DNA of 64,000 nt from Candidatus Rifleibacterium amylolyticum (GCA_009917695.1 JAACJG010000019.1:1-64000), one strand, 5' to 3'. Numbered from the stretch's first letter, positions 52,371 to 60,511 are shown. Notes: generated by a model not told the origin, from the sequence alone. Made by a program: numbers and translations.

Positions 52371-52460
52371 CAGATTAGGGCATGAGGGATTTGAACACCA
52401 GCTACAATTCATCGCTTCAGAGTCACGCAGTCGATTTGTTACCCCGATGTTACCCCATCG
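52371..52460 (-). other. Putative left attachment region (tRNA/tmRNA-like 3' remnant)
   Basis: The minus strand reads GTGTTCAAATCCCTCATGCCC (52402-52382), which looks like a T-loop and acceptor 3' strand, but the T-stem pairs badly and no CCA follows. Just inside lies a doubled GTTACCCC (around 52438-52456). Integrases of this type often use RNA-gene 3' ends. The intact partner would be at the other end, outside the window. Confidence 0.35.
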
Positions 52461-52900: not shown

Positions 52901-53074
52901 TCAATTTAAGAATCTTGATGATTGTTCTTCCGTCTTTGCAATATTTAATGCTCTATCTGCCGTTCCCGGCTTCTGAAACCTCAGCAAATCAGCGAGTTTA
53001 TCAAGTAAAAACTTTACCCGTTCTCTCATGCTTGAATCGACCTTGCCGACTCTGGCTACTGGCTTTGTTTTCAT
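52901..53074 (-). CDS. 57-residue protein coupled to the HTH gene
   Basis: A complete small gene: its ATG (53074-53072) overlaps the stop of the upstream HTH gene as ATGA, and an AGAGG ribosome site lies 8 nt upstream within that gene. It ends at TGA 52901. The peptide is basic and helical (MKTKPVARVGKVDSSMRERV, later FLLDKLADLLRF). No membrane span. Translational coupling argues strongly that it is real and works with the HTH protein. Family not recognised. Confidence 0.65.
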   Translation of the reverse strand: MKTKPVARVGKVDSSMRERVKFLLDKLADLLRFQKPGTADRALNIAKTEEQSSRFLN

Positions 53075-53481
53075 GCAACCGGCCTCTTATGCTTTTGATC
53101 TTCAGACGCTTGCAAAAATGCTTTCCCGATTGCCAGAAGCTCTTCAGGAGACAATGAGAGATACCTTTCCTGCTCAGCCTCAAGTTTGCCATGTGATAAT
53201 TCTGCAATCTTTGCACAAATTGAGCTATCACCCTTTGAAGGAAGCAGCACAACATTGAATTGCAATCGTTTCTCGCTCTTGAGAATGAAAGAATCTGTTT
53301 TTATCGGTCTGCATGCATTCAGAACCAGCCATTCTTCGAGCTCTGCGAGGCTGAATAATACGCGACCTTTTTTGCCTGGCTGTTTCAAGGCCTTTATTTT
53401 TCCAGCGCTTACCCAGTTTCTCAGCGTGCCCGGCGTGACATGTAAGAATGCAGCAGCCTCTTTATAGTCCATCGTTTTCAT
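53071..53481 (-). CDS. Helix-turn-helix protein (MerR/excisionase-type N-terminus)
   Basis: The 136-residue protein begins with a winged HTH of the excisionase/MerR group: MDYKEAAAFLHVTPGTLRNW (helix-turn-helix at about 4-25), then KIKALKQPGKKGRVLFSLAELEEWL as the wing and third helix. The C-terminal 80 residues are unassigned (KLEAEQERYLSLSPEELLA). It lies 11 nt after the serine recombinase stop in the same direction. Pairs of MerR-type HTH and serine recombinase are known from IS607-family elements, where the HTH directs the recombinase, but there the order is fused or HTH first. It may act as a recombination-directionality factor or regulator. Confidence 0.7.
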   Translation of the reverse strand: MKTMDYKEAAAFLHVTPGTLRNWVSAGKIKALKQPGKKGRVLFSLAELEEWLVLNACRPIKTDSFILKSEKRLQFNVVLLPSKGDSSICAKIAELSHGKLEAEQERYLSLSPEELLAIGKAFLQASEDQKHKRPVA

Positions 53482-53492
53482 TGATTACCCCA

Positions 53493-54170
53493 TTAACAGG
53501 CGATCTGACAGAGGTTTAGGATTGTCTTTGCCTGCCATACCTTGCCGCCCTTTTTGGTTGGTATGCCTCTGAGTTCCAGTTCTGCAGCAATTTTACGATA
53601 ACTCAAGCCGGAAGATCTTAACTCTCGAATAACAGAAAGAATCTCTTGCTCATTGGTTTCAGGTAAAAGGCTTTCACCATCAGCAGCCAGCTTAAAGCCG
53701 AAAGGCACTTGACCGACTCTTTGCCCTTGCTGCTTTTTCACCTGCAAGGCTGCCTTTGTTCTTTCTCCAATGGCTTCTCGTTCCCACTGACTCACGGAAC
53801 CAAGCACATTTAATACAAGCCGGCCAGCGGCCGTGCTCGTATTTATTGAATCCTGCACAGATACCAGAGCCACCCCTGTTTTTTCAAACAGTTCAACCAG
53901 GAAGCCAAGATCTCTGACCGATCTGGTTAAACGATCAAGCTTTAAGATCACAACCGCCTCGATCTGCTTAGCTTGTATCATGCTCAAAATTTTCTGCATG
54001 GCAGGCCTGTTAAGTGATTTTCCAGAATGACCGGCATCAACTTCAGTGTTCATCAAATCAATGTCGAGTGCTTCACAGTATGCTTTAATCTTGTCCTCTT
54101 GGTGCTTCAAGCTCAAACCGCTTTCTGCCTGATCTTGAGTGCTAACCCTGATGTAACCGACAGCTTTCAT
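53493..54170 (-). CDS. Serine recombinase (resolvase/invertase family)
   Basis: With ATG at 54170 (GGAG 6-7 nt upstream) the product is 225 residues. The catalytic domain starts MKAVGYIRVSTQDQ with nucleophile Ser10, followed by VILKLDRLTRSVRDLG (the conserved Arg pair) and TAAGRLVLNVLGSVSQWERE. The C-terminal helix-turn-helix is LRSSGLSYRKIAAELELRGIP. It cuts and rejoins DNA at short paired sites as a resolvase or invertase. Two exact 18-bp direct repeats lie directly upstream and are candidate recombination or operator sites. An AT-rich spacer and the HTH gene flank it. It is a second recombinase in the island besides the tyrosine integrase. Confidence 0.9.
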   Translation of the reverse strand: MKAVGYIRVSTQDQAESGLSLKHQEDKIKAYCEALDIDLMNTEVDAGHSGKSLNRPAMQKILSMIQAKQIEAVVILKLDRLTRSVRDLGFLVELFEKTGVALVSVQDSINTSTAAGRLVLNVLGSVSQWEREAIGERTKAALQVKKQQGQRVGQVPFGFKLAADGESLLPETNEQEILSVIRELRSSGLSYRKIAAELELRGIPTKKGGKVWQAKTILNLCQIAC

Positions 54171-54184
54171 GCCGCTTCTCCAAT

Positions 54185-54236
54185 TTGTCATTTTTTGTCA
54201 TCGACATACTTAATATAATGTCATTTTTTGTCATCG
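54185..54236 (-). repeat. Recombinase control region: paired 18-bp direct repeats of 10-bp TTGTCATT units
   Basis: TGTCATTTTTTGTCATCG occurs exactly at 54186-54203 and 54219-54236, 33 bp apart. Each holds two TTGTCAT-type units at 10-bp spacing, one helical turn. They lie just upstream of the recombinase start and overlap its AT-rich promoter region, so they fit a recombination site or autoregulatory operator. The same 10-bp unit recurs at 58212 and 58763. Confidence 0.65.
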
Positions 54237-54293
54237 TCTACTTGTTTTTGCTTTTTGTGTATAACCGGTCGGTGATACACGCTTTTCATCGCT

Positions 54294-54334
54294 AAAAAAA
54301 GCCAGACAATCGGTTCTACAAGCCCGATTGTCTG
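54294..54334 (-). terminator. Terminator of the tape-measure-like gene
   Basis: CAGACAATCGG (54303-54313) pairs with CCGATTGTCTG (54324-54334). On the minus strand the stem is followed by GGC and seven U. It separates this gene from the recombinase operon. Confidence 0.9.
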
Positions 54335-54379
54335 TAATTTATGTCTGACACCGCTCTTTCAAAAACAGCGGAATGATTC

Positions 54380-57300
54380 TTAGCCCCACATTGCTTTCTT
54401 GTCTGATGCCCGAATCAGCGTCTGCAAAGTTGCAACCATTTCTGGATCATCGCTGAATCGATCTCGCAATTCTTGCAAGGCCTTTGTTGTGTCGCCGCCC
54501 TGAATAATTACGATTCTGTCACCGCGTTGGCTGACTTCGCCGAATAGAGACAGTGCTGCTCCCAATCTTTCTATACTGCGAGCATCTTTTTCTTGCTGCT
54601 TTGCCTTAATCGCCTCTTCGGCTGCTTGCTCAGCGGCCAATGCTTCAAGCTTCGTTTGGTAGTATGCTTCTTGGTTCCGCTCGAATGCCGACAGGGCGGC
54701 GCTGCGCTCTTCATAACTCTTTGCCGCATTGTTGAAAATTTCTTCTTGGCGCCGCTTAACTTCTTCGTAAGCGGTCATTTGTTTTTCAAGATATTCCAGG
54801 TATTTTTCTGCATAGGCGCCTGCATCTGTTAACCGCAATGACTCAAGATCATACTTAGACGCGCCAGCCTGTTTTACCATGTCCAGCAGATACGGTGAAA
54901 TATTGCGGTCCATGTAGCCTGTCTGCAGCTGGGCGAAAGCATCGTATTGCTGAGATGAGGATAGCTTATCCATGTCAATCATGCCGGTGATCTGGCTTAG
55001 TATGTTGGCGCGCAAGTTCGACGGCAAGCCGCCTGACATATACATAGTGTCGAGCCATGGCGCATATTGCGCGAAACCCTGCGCTACCTGGGTGTTTCTT
55101 TCGCCGGTTGCAGCGCCGAGAGAACGCGCCATTTCGGCAGCTGCCATTTTGATTTCGTGAGCTGCTTCGGCCAGGTCGGCAGTGTCTTTACCGCCGTCAG
55201 TCCAGTTAAGAGAATAGGAACCGCCGTAAGCAAGGTTAGCCGCTTTGCGATATGCCGCCTCTTGACCGACAAGGGCTTGATAATCAAAACCCTTTGCTGA
55301 TTGCAGCTCGTAACCCATTTCGACCGATCTATTGTTTTTTTCGGCGCGCTCGATCGCTTCGTTAAGAGTGGCGAGGGCAGCACTGGCGCCCTGGTCGATC
55401 AGATTGTATGTTCTGGTTTTCTTGCTGAAAAAGCCATCGCCGCTGTCACTCCAGCTGTAACCAGTCTGCGTGCCATGGTAACCAAATCGACCAGCGGCAA
55501 GCTGATTTTTGTCCTGCCAAGAGAGGTATGGCAGCATACTAACTTCGTGCGATTTAACCCACGCCGCACTCATCTGCGAACGCAAATCAGACGCGGCCTG
55601 CAAAGTTTCGGCTTTGAACTTTTCCTGCCTTCCGCCGAAGATGCCGCCCGAGCCAGTCAGTCTGCCGAGAACAAAATTAGTTGCCAGGTTGATGCCGAGG
55701 TTGCCGAAGTTAATGCCGCCTGCCGCATTCATGACCGGGTTGGACTGTGCAACCGATTTTGAAATGACTGTATTCAGGATGTTGCCAAGTGTCATGCTCA
55801 GATTGCTGAAGTCAGCATTTGCAAAGCCGGCCTGAACGGCTTCGGCGATGGTTTTTGATAGTGGTTCTTTTATGTCATTAAGCGTGTCTGGGATAGAGCC
55901 TCCAGCTGCAGTAAATAGCCCGCCGGACATGAAGTCCATCATCTTTGTATTAGCAGTAGCAAGCGTCATATTTTTCAGCTCGTTGCCCCAATTTTTGCCA
56001 GCGCCGGCCAACGTTGCAAGAACATCGTCGTTCAGATCGCGAAACTTCTTTTCGAGTTTGCCGGCCTCTGTATCGCCATCCTTCAGACCGACAGCGAAGC
56101 CGCCGGCAGCTGCTGCCATTGCTGTCAAAACATTCTGAGCATCCTTCAGGCTTTTTGTTGTTTTCAGGCTGAATCCAAAACTGTCTGCAAAGGTTTCCTG
56201 AAATTCCTGAATGAGAATCTTGCCTACAGCTAACTGTTTGTTGAGCTCATCTTGGGCTTGTTTCCTTTTTCTTCGGGCCTCTTCTTCCGCCTTGCGGCGT
56301 TCCTCTTCTATTTCTTTTTTTCTGGCCGCTTCATCGGCTTCTTTCTTTGTTGCTTCTGCTTCCCTATCTTTTTGTGCCGATAGTTTACCAGCCAGCTTTA
56401 TTCGCTCTCTCTGTGTTTCCAAGCTCTTTAATTCAAGAGTAATTCTATTCTCTTCCTTTTCAATAACCTTGTCGATTTCATCAAGCCAACCAACATTTAT
56501 ACCAGCAGATTCGAGTATCCCCGCTGCTGATGAATAGCTTTCTGCTTTCTTTGCCTTATTGATAGCTGTTTGTTGTTGAGCAAGTTCGAATTTGCGCTCC
56601 CTGATTTTTGCTAACTGGCCGGCCTCGCCCTGATTGGCGGTTATTCCATTTAATCTATTCGAGGCGTTGACTATCTCGTCTATTTGCGTGGCAATCTGTG
56701 TTAACCATTCAACTGTTGGTATCATCACAGGTATGAGGCCTTCGCCAAGAGAATGTTTGAGATCTGTTACCGACGTGTCGAGTTGAGTAAATTTATCGTT
56801 GACGGTTGTTCCGTGCTTAGCCAGCACGTCGGCACTTGCACCCGCCTGCTCTAACACAGACTTTAACAGCAACGATCTATTATTCAGCAGTTCCGTTGCG
56901 TCAGAAGCTTGCTTAAAAGCCGGCGGCAGCAGTCCAAGCTGAATAAGCTCTTCTTTGCTACCTTTGCTTATTGCCTTGACGAGTCGGTCAAAAGTCTGCT
57001 CGATGCTCTGGCCGAATTCATCGCCCACTGCATCTGAAATCTGCCAGAGTCGCGCAATTTCGCCGACATCTGTAGAGACGCCCAGCTTCAAGGCCTTGTG
57101 GTTCATACGAATCAGAGTAAGATTATCAACCAGCCCATTGCTTGCCTTTTTTGTCGCCTGCTGAAGCTGATCGAAAGATATGCCCATTGTTGAAGTCAGT
57201 GTCTGCAAATATAATCTGGCTTCTGAGAGCTGAGAGGCTTCCTTCGCCATCGAGAAGGCGCCCTTTACAGCAGTTCCAAGGGCTGCTGCAGAAAGAGCCG

Positions 57301-57466
57301 TCTTCACAAAAGACGAATCCATTATTCCTGCACCAGTCTTAACGTTCTGACCGGCCTTGTTGGCTTCGCTGCCTACGTCTTGCAACCCTTTTTGCACACT
57401 GCGCAAAACCTGTTCGCTACGCCCGGCATCGGTTTCAATAATAATTTTTGTGCGTTGTTCAGACAT
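54380..57466 (-). CDS. Phage tail tape-measure-like protein (orphan)
   Basis: The 1,028-residue protein looks like a tail length tape measure. N-terminal ALSAAALGTAVKGAFSMA near residue 57 is the usual hydrophobic start of the TMP/TP901 core; the region to about 270 is helical (KEELIQLGLLPPAFKQASDA). A Lys/Glu-rich coiled coil spans about 345-415 (EADEAARKKEIEEERRKAEE type). Later parts are Gly/Ala-rich with hydrophobic stretches and a final coiled coil near 930-985. In phages the protein fills the tail tube and sets its length. No other tail gene is present here, so it may be a relic, or serve interference with helper-phage tails. Terminator downstream, long spacer upstream. Confidence 0.7.
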   Translation of the reverse strand: MSEQRTKIIIETDAGRSEQVLRSVQKGLQDVGSEANKAGQNVKTGAGIMDSSFVKTALSAAALGTAVKGAFSMAKEASQLSEARLYLQTLTSTMGISFDQLQQATKKASNGLVDNLTLIRMNHKALKLGVSTDVGEIARLWQISDAVGDEFGQSIEQTFDRLVKAISKGSKEELIQLGLLPPAFKQASDATELLNNRSLLLKSVLEQAGASADVLAKHGTTVNDKFTQLDTSVTDLKHSLGEGLIPVMIPTVEWLTQIATQIDEIVNASNRLNGITANQGEAGQLAKIRERKFELAQQQTAINKAKKAESYSSAAGILESAGINVGWLDEIDKVIEKEENRITLELKSLETQRERIKLAGKLSAQKDREAEATKKEADEAARKKEIEEERRKAEEEARRKRKQAQDELNKQLAVGKILIQEFQETFADSFGFSLKTTKSLKDAQNVLTAMAAAAGGFAVGLKDGDTEAGKLEKKFRDLNDDVLATLAGAGKNWGNELKNMTLATANTKMMDFMSGGLFTAAGGSIPDTLNDIKEPLSKTIAEAVQAGFANADFSNLSMTLGNILNTVISKSVAQSNPVMNAAGGINFGNLGINLATNFVLGRLTGSGGIFGGRQEKFKAETLQAASDLRSQMSAAWVKSHEVSMLPYLSWQDKNQLAAGRFGYHGTQTGYSWSDSGDGFFSKKTRTYNLIDQGASAALATLNEAIERAEKNNRSVEMGYELQSAKGFDYQALVGQEAAYRKAANLAYGGSYSLNWTDGGKDTADLAEAAHEIKMAAAEMARSLGAATGERNTQVAQGFAQYAPWLDTMYMSGGLPSNLRANILSQITGMIDMDKLSSSQQYDAFAQLQTGYMDRNISPYLLDMVKQAGASKYDLESLRLTDAGAYAEKYLEYLEKQMTAYEEVKRRQEEIFNNAAKSYEERSAALSAFERNQEAYYQTKLEALAAEQAAEEAIKAKQQEKDARSIERLGAALSLFGEVSQRGDRIVIIQGGDTTKALQELRDRFSDDPEMVATLQTLIRASDKKAMWG

Positions 57467-57832
57467 AATGTATTCTTTCTATATTGTTCGAACGTCGCAC
57501 TATAACGGTTATTACTAGAACTGATTCTATCACAAATCGGTGTTATGGCCTCAAAATCTGCATTTCACCCCCATTAATCGTGAATCTGCTGTGATCAATA
57601 ATAGTATGTAGACACTTAATATTATAACCAAAAAGACTGTGTTTTCATACATCGAAAGCCCTGAAAACATTGATTATTATGCAGCTTCAACTATATTCAC
57701 AAAAGACATAAAAAACATGTTGTGCATGAAATATTAAAGGCTCACAACATTTAATACTCTGATCAATCATTGCCAGGCAAAACAATATGTCCCGCAGCAT
57801 ACTACCGCCAGAAAACCTGTTTTTCTTCTACT
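57467..57832. other. AT-rich spacer upstream of the tape-measure-like gene
   Basis: No ORF with coding features. The region is clearly more A/T-rich than its surroundings and must hold the promoter of the tape-measure-like gene. A weak TATAGT (minus strand, about 57516-57521) is the best -10 candidate. Nothing else is recognised. Confidence 0.4.
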
Positions 57833-58054
57833 TCGAAGGCTACAAAAGCAAACCGTAACCCTGTGAAGGTTTGCCGGTGAGAAGCCAGAAACCACCGGCC
57901 GCCACGAATCTAATTACCTGAGAAGTTTTGAGAGAGGGGGAATTCTTGGAGCTGCTAATGTAGCGAGAGATAAAAGGGGCTCTGAGTCGTGATATTTGTC
58001 TGATTACTTTGGGTTGGTGCTAAATGGCCGGCCCAGGCACGCAAGACAAAAACT

Positions 58055-58086
58055 ACCCGGCCTTATTATGGCCGGGTTGTTTTTTG
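58055..58086. terminator. Terminator 1 of tandem unit copy 1
   Basis: ACCCGGCC (58055-58062), 7-nt loop, GGCCGGGT (58070-58077), then TGTTTTTTG. Upstream A-run also gives a U-tract on the minus strand, so it works in both directions. Confidence 0.85.
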
Positions 58087-58211
58087 TCCAGCGTTGCCAA
58101 GGCCTCACAACAGATTCAAGCACACCAGGTAATCAAAGTTACATTGAAGTTAAGCAAGTGGCGGCCGGTGAACAGGCTTTGAGGCCTGCCAGATTTTCGC
58201 CTGATCTGATC

Positions 58212-58241
58212 TTGTCATTTGTTGTCATTCATTGTCATTCT
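58212..58241 (+). repeat. Three 10-bp iterons (TTGTCATTNN), copy 1
   Basis: TTGTCATT starts at 58212, 58222 and 58232, exactly one helical turn apart. The unit equals that upstream of the serine recombinase, pointing to one binding protein for both places. Confidence 0.6.
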
Positions 58242-58290
58242 GCTTTTGCAGCGAGAACAAAGGCAACTGGCTAAGGCGTGGCAAAAATGG

Positions 58291-58319
58291 AACCGGGCGG
58301 CAAGCCCGGTTTGCTTTTT
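58291..58319. terminator. Terminator 2 of tandem unit copy 1
   Basis: AACCGGGC (58291-58298) and GCCCGGTT (58304-58311), then TGCTTTTT. Minus-strand reading gives CATTTTTG after the stem. Confidence 0.8.
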
Positions 58320-58606
58320 GCCCTGCCGTGCTCGGTGCCTTGACTCGAATCATCATAGCACCTCAACAAGTATACTTTTGCTGTCGAAGGCGCAAACCGC
58401 AGACCGGAACCCTGTGAAGGTTTGCCGGTGAGAAGCCAGAGGCCACCGGCCGCCACGAATCTAATTGCCTGAGAAGTTTTGAGGGAGCGGGAAGGCCTGC
58501 AGCCGAAAAGCTTGCCTGAGCTATAACCATGCCTGCGTCATGATATTTGTCTGGTTTCTTTGGGGCTTGTGCTGAGTGGCCGGCCCGGGCACGCAAGACA
58601 AAAACT

Positions 58607-58638
58607 ACCCGGCCTTATTATGGCCGGGTTGTTTTTTG
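58607..58638. terminator. Terminator 1 of tandem unit copy 2
   Basis: Same stem as in copy 1: ACCCGGCC (58607-58614), GGCCGGGT (58622-58629), then TGTTTTTTG. Confidence 0.85.
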
Positions 58639-58762
58639 TCCAGCTTTGCCAAGGCCTGGCATGCGGCAAAGCACACCAGGTAATCAAAGTTACATTGAAG
58701 TTAAGCAAGTGGCGGCCGGTGAACAGGCCTTGAGGCCTGCCAGATTTTCGCCTGATCTGGTC

Positions 58763-58782
58763 TTGTCATTCATTGTCATTCT
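58763..58782 (+). repeat. Two 10-bp iterons (TTGTCATTNN), copy 2
   Basis: TTGTCATT starts at 58763 and 58773. One 10-bp unit is missing compared with copy 1, the usual way iteron arrays vary. Confidence 0.6.
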
Positions 58783-58831
58783 GCTTTTGCAGCGAGAACA
58801 AAGGCAACTGGCTAAGGCGTGGCAAAAATGG

Positions 58832-58857
58832 AACCGGTCGAAGGCCGGTTTGCTTTT
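58832..58857. terminator. Terminator 2 of tandem unit copy 2
   Basis: AACCGGTC (58832-58839) and GGCCGGTT (58843-58850), then TGCTTTTT. Differs from copy 1 by pair-preserving changes. Confidence 0.8.
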
Positions 58858-58941
58858 TGCCCTGCCGGGCCGGTTGCCTTGACTCAAAATCATCTCAGGG
58901 CTGAAAGCCTGAAAAACGAAGTGGCGGCCGGAAAACGCCTT

Positions 58942-60033
58942 TCAGCTGCTTTTATCTGAATCTATCAACAGTTTTTCCATTGTGAGAACTGCATCATTCT
59001 GACTGCCTGGTATGTCATGCGCGTAAATGTCGCCGGTAATTCTGGTATTTGAGTGTCCAAGCCTTGCAGAAACAGAGGGTAAAGAGTTTTTATCTTTCAA
59101 CAGCATACTTGCATGGGTATGTCTCAAATCATGTGACCTTACACCAGAGATACCAAGCTCTTTCGAGATGCGCTTAAGATGTTCGGTTAAGCGTCTCGGG
59201 TTAATGTGTCGGCGACCGCCGAACAACAGACCTTTGCGCTTTTCAATCGGAACCTGCCGGAATTCGTTAATGATTGAATGCGGTATCTCGAGCGTTCTGT
59301 ATGATTTTTCTGTTTTAAGAGGCCTGAGATGCACACCGCCACGACTTTCAATCAACTGCCTTCTGATTGTGACGGTTCTTTTCTCAAGATCAATATCAGA
59401 CCAGGCAACGCCCAACGCCTCACCACGCCTGGCACCGGCAAACAGCAGCAGCAGACACGGAAACTTGTATTCTGATTCAAGGCACTTTTTATAGAGCATG
59501 TTGAATTCATGCTTTGACAGAATCCTGTGCTTTGCCGGTTCTATTTTCGGCATTTTAACGCCCTTCAACGGGTTTCGAAAAATCAATTCATCTTCAATGG
59601 CCTGTCTCAACGCAGCATTGAGAATTGAACGTACAAGATTAACTGTCCTGGGGGAACGTCGGGCACTCAACTGAGAAAAGAACCCGGCAAAAATAAGGGG
59701 TTTCAGATCTGCTAGATTGAATTTACCTAGTTCAGGCTTTATGTGATTATTTATCATCATAAAATAAAGCCGTTTAGTGGTATCAGCCTTGCCAGTTGAA
59801 TACTTTGCAAGCCATGTATCAAGCCAATTCTCAAGGGTAACAGTAGAATTATGATCAATACCATTGATCTTTCGATACTTTTCCAGCAGTTCAAAGCTTT
59901 CTTTCAGAGTTTTTCCGGCCGGAAAGTGTGTTTCAACAATCCGGCCGGCTGCGTCTTTCGCCCTATGACGATAATAATAACGGCCATTTCTCTGATAGAA
60001 ACAGCCGCCACCTTTAGGCCTTCTGGCTGCCAT
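58942..60033 (-). CDS. int: Tyrosine recombinase (phage-type integrase)
   Basis: The 363-residue protein begins MAARRPKGGGCFYQRNGRYYYR, an arm-type DNA-binding start, followed by a core-binding domain (TLENWLDTWLAKYS) and a catalytic domain with all residues: Arg in FAGARRGEALG (R203), Lys in PLKTEKS (K243 if the second Lys), HDLRHTHAS (H301, R304), LGHSNTRIT (H327) and Tyr in YAHD (Y337). It integrates and excises the island at the att site. The ATG at 60033 lies 20 nt inside the upstream gene's end, so the two are coupled; a longer frame to 60078 is possible. It is separated from the tape-measure-like gene by the tandem non-coding unit. Confidence 0.95.
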   Translation of the reverse strand: MAARRPKGGGCFYQRNGRYYYRHRAKDAAGRIVETHFPAGKTLKESFELLEKYRKINGIDHNSTVTLENWLDTWLAKYSTGKADTTKRLYFMMINNHIKPELGKFNLADLKPLIFAGFFSQLSARRSPRTVNLVRSILNAALRQAIEDELIFRNPLKGVKMPKIEPAKHRILSKHEFNMLYKKCLESEYKFPCLLLLFAGARRGEALGVAWSDIDLEKRTVTIRRQLIESRGGVHLRPLKTEKSYRTLEIPHSIINEFRQVPIEKRKGLLFGGRRHINPRRLTEHLKRISKELGISGVRSHDLRHTHASMLLKDKNSLPSVSARLGHSNTRITGDIYAHDIPGSQNDAVLTMEKLLIDSDKSS

Positions 60034-60511
60034 CTGCGACCTGGTTATAGCTTTCAATAAGCAGCTGTGTGTGCTCAAAAATAATGAAGCCTTTTTCCAT
60101 GCCAGCGGCTATATAATATGGAACAAGATCTATAACATTTTTGAACCAGCGCATTTTGCTGAGTTTCAATTCAGTTTTCTGCAAGTATGATTCAGACAGA
60201 GTTTCAATATCTCTAAAGTCAGAGATGACAAAGTTATCAGATTTCAGCATGCCAACAAGCTGCCTGGTAATTGTTTCCGCTCCAGGCTCATCTTTTGCAA
60301 TATCCCAGCACACAAACAGACCAGATAGTAAACCGTAAAATTCTGCCAAGGCCTTAAGATCGACTACTTCAGAAAGAGCACTTGCAAGAGTTGTGTCAAT
60401 TGAGCCGCAGAAGTCAAAGGCAGGAAGAGGCTCACGGTACCGACGACCGGCAGCAATTATTTCACACGCTTTGCCAAAGTATTTATGAGAGCCTTTATTG
60501 TTAACAAGCAT
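60014..60511 (-). CDS. Hypothetical island protein
   Basis: The 165-residue product is helical and hydrophilic with scattered aromatic residues (LKALAEFYGLLSGLFVCWDI, KNVIDLVPYYIAAGMEKGF). There is no signal peptide; the hydrophobic patches are too short for confident membrane spans. Family not recognised. GGAGA lies upstream of the ATG. Its end overlaps the integrase start by 20 nt, so both are made from one transcript. A role linked to integration or excision is possible, from position only. Confidence 0.65.
   Translation of the reverse strand: MLVNNKGSHKYFGKACEIIAAGRRYREPLPAFDFCGSIDTTLASALSEVVDLKALAEFYGLLSGLFVCWDIAKDEPGAETITRQLVGMLKSDNFVISDFRDIETLSESYLQKTELKLSKMRWFKNVIDLVPYYIAAGMEKGFIIFEHTQLLIESYNQVADGSQKA

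Follow-up and report, generated by a model that had tools for sequence, protein, structure and literature searches.

We find that the tandem decamers lying ahead of a serine recombinase gene and within two structured units of a mobile island in Candidatus Rifleibacterium amylolyticum are quite probably operator units of the island's own HTH_17 winged-helix protein, which would control its own operon through them and would have further sites near an integrase gene. The window, that is, the whole 64-kb stretch of DNA that was analysed, carries TTGTCAT-type tandem decamers at 54185, 54218, 58212/58222 and 58763, in a single orientation throughout. Read on the minus strand, every copy is ATGACAANNNATGACA, and the minus strand is also the coding strand for the recombinase, the HTH protein, the tape-measure-like protein and the integrase; the decamer consensus on this strand is RATGACAANR. 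The positions, the 10-bp spacing and the perfect 18-bp direct repeats (54186–54203 and 54219–54236, 33 bp apart) that had been described from the bare sequence were all found again, and the arrays at 58212 and 58763 consist of three and two units, respectively, in exact 10-bp register. Information content drops steeply at either edge of the two decamers.

The motif is rare. With up to two mismatches allowed, TTGTCATNNNTTGTCAT has five matches in the window (54185, 54218, 58212, 58222 and 58763), while shuffled windows gave a mean of 0.59 and none of them reached five. Exact copies of the 17-mer number eight in the 5.39-Mb genome and 28 across 39 genomes from the phylum, compared to none in either for the reversed pattern, which meets the objection that such units might be equally frequent elsewhere by chance. 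Almost all of the exact copies belong to the genus of the window and to one neighbouring genus of the same family; matches with one mismatch, on the other hand, are mostly coding coincidences, and a search of IMG/VR returned no copy of either of the promoter patterns given below. On the 90-kb contig (C19), all six of the strongest iteron pairs are found within a 20.8-kb island at a tRNA-Lys gene. A weaker pair, AGTGACGAAGAATGACAAAT, lies in the same island beyond the window, at contig position 70554, and is followed by genes for an XRE-type regulator and a metalloprotease-like protein in an ImmR/ImmA-like order (C19:69141–70239, L021).

The features of the recombinase-HTH operon are the following:

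54212–54240, minus strand: predicted sigma-70-like promoter of the operon, TAGACG-17-TATATT, 9 of 12 consensus matches
54219–54234, minus strand: promoter-spacer iteron pair ATGACAAAAA-ATGACA, a candidate operator between TAGACG (54240–54235) and TATATT (54217–54212)
54186–54201, minus strand: leader iteron pair ATGACAAAAA-ATGACA, just 5′ of the ribosome-binding region (GGAG) and the ATG at 54170
53493–54191, minus strand: serine recombinase, 232 aa as called (PF00239, 6e-40; PF07508, partial)
53071–53481, minus strand: HTH_17 excisionase-family protein, the proposed iteron binder, encoded by the second gene of the operon (PF12728, 1.5e-11, above the cut-off)

The recombinase, whose closest solved structure by sequence is the catalytic domain of the TP901-1 integrase, probably begins with the ATG at 54170 (M-K-A-V-G-Y) and not at 54191, and its homologue in a second species (G026) starts at the codon equivalent to ATG 54170. 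With this start, the proximal iteron pair falls in the leader and not in coding sequence. The equivalent promoter in G026, TGGACA-17-TATATT, matches the consensus at 10 of 12 positions and has the same iteron layout, including the leader pair, with 34 bp between the pairs as opposed to 33 bp in the window.

Related genomes were searched for conserved iterons, and these were found in G026 and in further HTH_17 promoters. Candidate own-promoter sites are present in seven HTH_17 operons (window, G026, G025, G027, G014:C85, L162 and L166), in all of which a decamer pair fills the spacer between the −35 and −10 elements and more decamer units follow downstream; in the promoters of the homologues from other genomes, too, the 10-bp register is exact. 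The recombinase-HTH promoters read ATGACAARAA-ATGACAT ahead of TATATT, and the promoters of HTH_17 alone read ATGACAATAR-ATTACATATA-TTATYARTAG-ATKACAAATY. HTH_17 is the first gene, with no recombinase ahead of it, in five of the seven operons. These five promoters are closely related and not independent of each other, so the independent comparison is that of the group as a whole with the window/G026 pair, and between these two there appears, by eye, to be little in common beyond the decamers and the −10 element. Conversely, seven recombinase homologues (32–45% identity) for which no HTH_17 neighbour was detected have no upstream iteron pair (best upstream iteron score 0.6 vs 26.9–28.1), although some of them have little or no upstream sequence available. 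In the phylum, each of the six confidently assigned HTH_17 homologues is encoded on a contig that carries the motif. Thus the iterons track HTH_17 and not the recombinase, which points to the HTH protein as the binder. The sequence-only reading had proposed that one island protein binds both places, naming the recombinase, the HTH protein or a replication factor; on this comparison a single binder is probable, with the HTH protein clearly favoured as the predicted one, and the recombinase is not supported. One genome departs from the pattern: G024 (95% complete) has a motif copy ahead of an ORF6N gene and no HTH_17 homologue was found in it, so that this copy is either read by another protein or vestigial. 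We also note that L162 and L166, which have the same promoter, come from assemblies labelled Crenarchaeota and Proteobacteria and are probably mis-binned mobile contigs.

The HTH_17 protein has an excisionase-type winged helix-turn-helix. Besides PF12728 it matches the TIGR01764 'excise' model (31.7 bits, cut-off 28.8), its PHROG match is excisionase, and the only PDB sequence match of its profile is Pukovnik Xis (PDB 4j2n, E 0.013), which resembles it in both profile and fold although sequence similarity is weak. Confidence in the AlphaFold model is low overall (mean pLDDT 59) and higher within the HTH (about 80), and Foldseek gave no match at E < 0.001 with it, but the model aligns with BldC (TMt 0.72–0.81, 1.7–2.1 Å) and also with RdfS and Pukovnik Xis, and P2 Cox shares the fold. 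Against the NCBIfam BldC model the protein scores 21.2 bits, far below the cut-off of 77; though outside that family, it may nevertheless work like BldC.

The proteins that it resembles bind DNA in a manner that would suit the decamers. BldC of Streptomyces, a MerR-like winged-helix protein and among the closest structural matches, binds direct repeats head-to-tail and in variable number (PMC5859096); it differs in being a developmental regulator with an AT-rich consensus, and the window protein has extra carboxy-terminal residues. RdfS of a Mesorhizobium ICE has the HTH_17 winged-helix fold in a similar mobile-element context; it binds both attP and the promoter of its own gene, taking up about 10 bp per molecule, with negative autoregulation (PMC11963761), as we propose for the decamers in the promoter of the window operon. 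Unlike the window protein, for which a sharply conserved decamer can be defined, RdfS has no apparent consensus motif, and the window gene, whose own-promoter sites are candidates, shares its operon with a serine recombinase. The sites of recombination directionality factors are direct repeats one turn apart, and Apl of phage 186 binds att as well as a promoter region (PMC7498355). Apl and P2 Cox combine excisionase and promoter regulator in one protein, as may the HTH_17 protein, and their direct repeats, spaced by 10–11 bp, occur at two places, as do the window decamers; their sites are located between convergent lysis-lysogeny promoters and at att, whereas the window decamers occur within a single promoter spacer and within a structured tandem unit (PMC7498355).

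We suggest that each HTH_17 protomer would occupy one decamer, equal to one helical turn, and that the protomers would line up head-to-tail and cooperatively on the DNA, so that the earlier idea of cooperative binding to one DNA face, one turn per unit, is predicted to be likely from these analogues. With one decamer pair in the −35/−10 spacer and another in the leader at 54.2 kb, the protein should repress its own operon. Such autorepression is likely also from its fold, given that BldC, RdfS and Pukovnik Xis bind head-to-tail with about one turn per protomer.

The second location of the decamers is a pair of tandem structured units next to a tyrosine integrase gene:

57833–58330, minus strand: tandem unit 1, structured and non-coding, with a ACCGGCCGCCAC/GTGGCGGCCGGT long-range stem and bidirectional terminator-like hairpins
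58210–58239, minus strand: three-unit iteron array AATGACAATG-AATGACAACA-AATGACAAGA of tandem unit 1, aligned with the G026 copies
58384–58860, minus strand: tandem unit 2, like unit 1, 551 bp from start to start
58761–58780, minus strand: two-unit iteron array AATGACAATG-AATGACAAGA of tandem unit 2, exactly one decamer fewer than in unit 1
58942–60078, minus strand: tyrosine integrase (PF00589, 3.1e-19) with its 3′ end next to the tandem units, at the same position in G026

Each unit combines an iteron array with a long-range inverted repeat and with terminator-like hairpins on either strand. G026 has two tandem copies at the equivalent place, in which the array is kept while the adjoining bases differ, and the sites in the units, which are conserved in this second species, are probably bound by the same HTH_17 protein. 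Within a genome the copies resemble each other more closely than they resemble those of the other genome, a pattern suggestive of homogenisation or of separate duplications. Covariation is seen for 2 of 87 pairs, from four sequences only. Promoter prediction found none in the tandem unit, a scan of the window end against Rfam gave no meaningful match, and no relative of the unit was found in the phage collection. In G026 a repressor-like gene is located between the tandem units and the tape-measure-like gene (C30:8026–8679, L023/L028), and it is missing from the window. As further sites of the HTH_17 protein, the arrays would most likely serve to regulate or assist the tyrosine integrase, with the protein as directionality factor, or to regulate the integrase/tape-measure transcription unit.

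All of these repeats are within the 20.8-kb island, which is inserted at tRNA-Lys(ctt) between the two copies of a 22-bp duplication, of which the left one is in the window:

52375–52396, plus strand: left attachment copy TTAGGGCATGAGGGATTTGAAC, matched by a second one within tRNA-Lys(ctt) (contig position 73182)

The island is absent from the equivalent site in G023 and G024. It encodes a P4-type integrase adjoining the tRNA (about 71303–72650), the second tyrosine integrase at 58942–60078, the tandem units, the tape-measure-like gene and the serine recombinase-HTH operon; the replication genes nearest to the arrays are those for a primase and a replisome organiser at 62.4–63.7 kb. The tandem unit was considered as the attachment region of the island, an idea that was given up in view of the copies at 52375 and 73182. 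The arrays flank the 3′ end of the tyrosine integrase and the attachment copies lie elsewhere, 2–21 kb from the iterons, and the integrase at the tRNA end is of the P4 type; their position therefore does not support a directionality role, which the HTH_17 protein may perhaps have for the adjoining tyrosine integrase.

Direct repeats spaced by about one turn are common among integrase arm sites, and the arrays lie just beyond the 3′ end of the integrase in both the window genome and G026, which fits the idea that the iterons are arm-type sites of this enzyme. We consider it quite improbable, since it leaves the promoter copies unexplained and since the HTH_17 promoters of G025, G027, G014, L162 and L166 have iterons, with no integrase homologue found in G025 or G027. 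That the serine recombinase itself binds them would agree with the two pairs directly 5′ of its gene in two species, but it is highly improbable in view of the iteron-free recombinase homologues, those with no HTH_17 neighbour detected, and of the HTH_17 genes that have iterons with no recombinase. Serine recombinase sites are, furthermore, usually inverted repeats, while the window units are direct and have no inverted partner around a central dinucleotide, as sites of the res/hix type would. The same direct orientation and the differing spacer bases speak against the earlier suggestion that the copies are recombination sites for deletion or inversion of the 4-kb segment between them, and G026 has the same gene order over the part that its two contigs cover. 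Replication iterons of a plasmid-like or phage-like element, which had also been put forward, could be reconciled with the Rep3-type initiators and motif copies on two G026 contigs (C154 and C66) and with the primase and replisome organiser of the island. We hold this to be scarcely likely, as the copies are single pairs scattered in promoter spacers and elsewhere and are not clustered at Rep genes. No Rep3 gene was found among the island genes examined, and no Rep-type initiator adjoins the window copies or is among the genes examined near the arrays.

The motif has a wider distribution in the genus, where copies are found beside toxin-antitoxin (TA) genes, inside a larger structured element and ahead of ORF6N antirepressor genes situated 3′ of related structured elements. 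The large element (about 670–780 nt; L080:200–980 in G026 C154) has the 17-bp motif inside its 5′ module, and such modules are also found in the window genome (C6), G025 (C580), G014 (C85, C139 and C143) and G015 (C176). Its closing helix has compensatory changes, with five pairs altered on both sides, and the covariation score was reached by 0 of 500 shuffles, a test that ignores relatedness. Neither a scan of nine related loci against Rfam nor a search of the plasmid collection for the large G026 element gave a meaningful match or a relative, respectively. A second structured element (CCGGCCGCCAC ... GTGGCGGCCGG) is present in the window genome (C3:92.75–93.1 kb and C2:397.7–398.5 kb), G024 (C36:414.5 kb), G023 (C153:24.7 kb) and G027 (C426:0.5–1.1 kb); searched across the genus, CCGGCCGCCAC alone matches mostly coding coincidences. 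In two cases this element comes after a terminase small-subunit-like gene, and it is mostly directly 5′ of an ORF6N antirepressor gene whose start is within decamer repeats; on C2 the ORF6N gene looks inserted near its 3′ end. A 5.9-kb contig of the window genome (C31, L019) combines a motif copy, an ORF6N gene, a 1048-aa primase-type protein and a tyrosine recombinase. In the collection of papers searched, none was found that links noncoding RNA to Riflebacteria or direct repeats to ORF6N.

These many copies in structured elements or beside toxin-antitoxin genes, where neither a promoter role nor an att role is apparent, count against the operator reading. Alternatively, the motif could be a recombination or gene-cassette site at which a serine or tyrosine recombinase moves TA, ORF6N and similar genes. 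A YafQ-type TA pair in G025 (C309, L082) has an exact site on either side, the two being 696 bp apart, a HigB TA pair in G026 (C154, L080) is likewise enclosed by two sites, and ORF6N gene fragments stop at or near sites (L080:6243, L112 and L129), an arrangement that suggests rearrangement there. In a comparison with integron attC-like sites, cassette-like pairs and a structured module were seen. The motif is inside the module with the compensatory pairs, and C31 encodes a tyrosine recombinase. Still, we find this explanation unlikely: the motif consists of two direct decamers and has no inverted half-sites around a crossover core, its orientation relative to genes is inconsistent, the window copies differ in spacer bases, and the conserved position in promoter spacers suits an operator. 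For a broader version, in which a mobile-element network uses the 17-bp motif as a common address and the motif is a new kind of cassette-exchange or coordination site, not an operator only, we see a small chance; it builds on the fact that large structured elements with no Rfam match, TA/ORF6N cassettes and HTH_17/recombinase operons all carry the motif.

Control of its own operon by an excisionase-like protein is a strategy already known from phages and other mobile elements. If our preferred reading of the decamers as HTH_17 operators is true, it would extend the dual use of one such protein, for promoter control and possibly for control of recombination, to a poorly studied phylum, and the operator would here be unusually sharp and countable. 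Since many mobile loci of the genus carry this motif, unclassified structured elements among them, it would offer a simple handle on whether unrelated mobile elements share a regulator.
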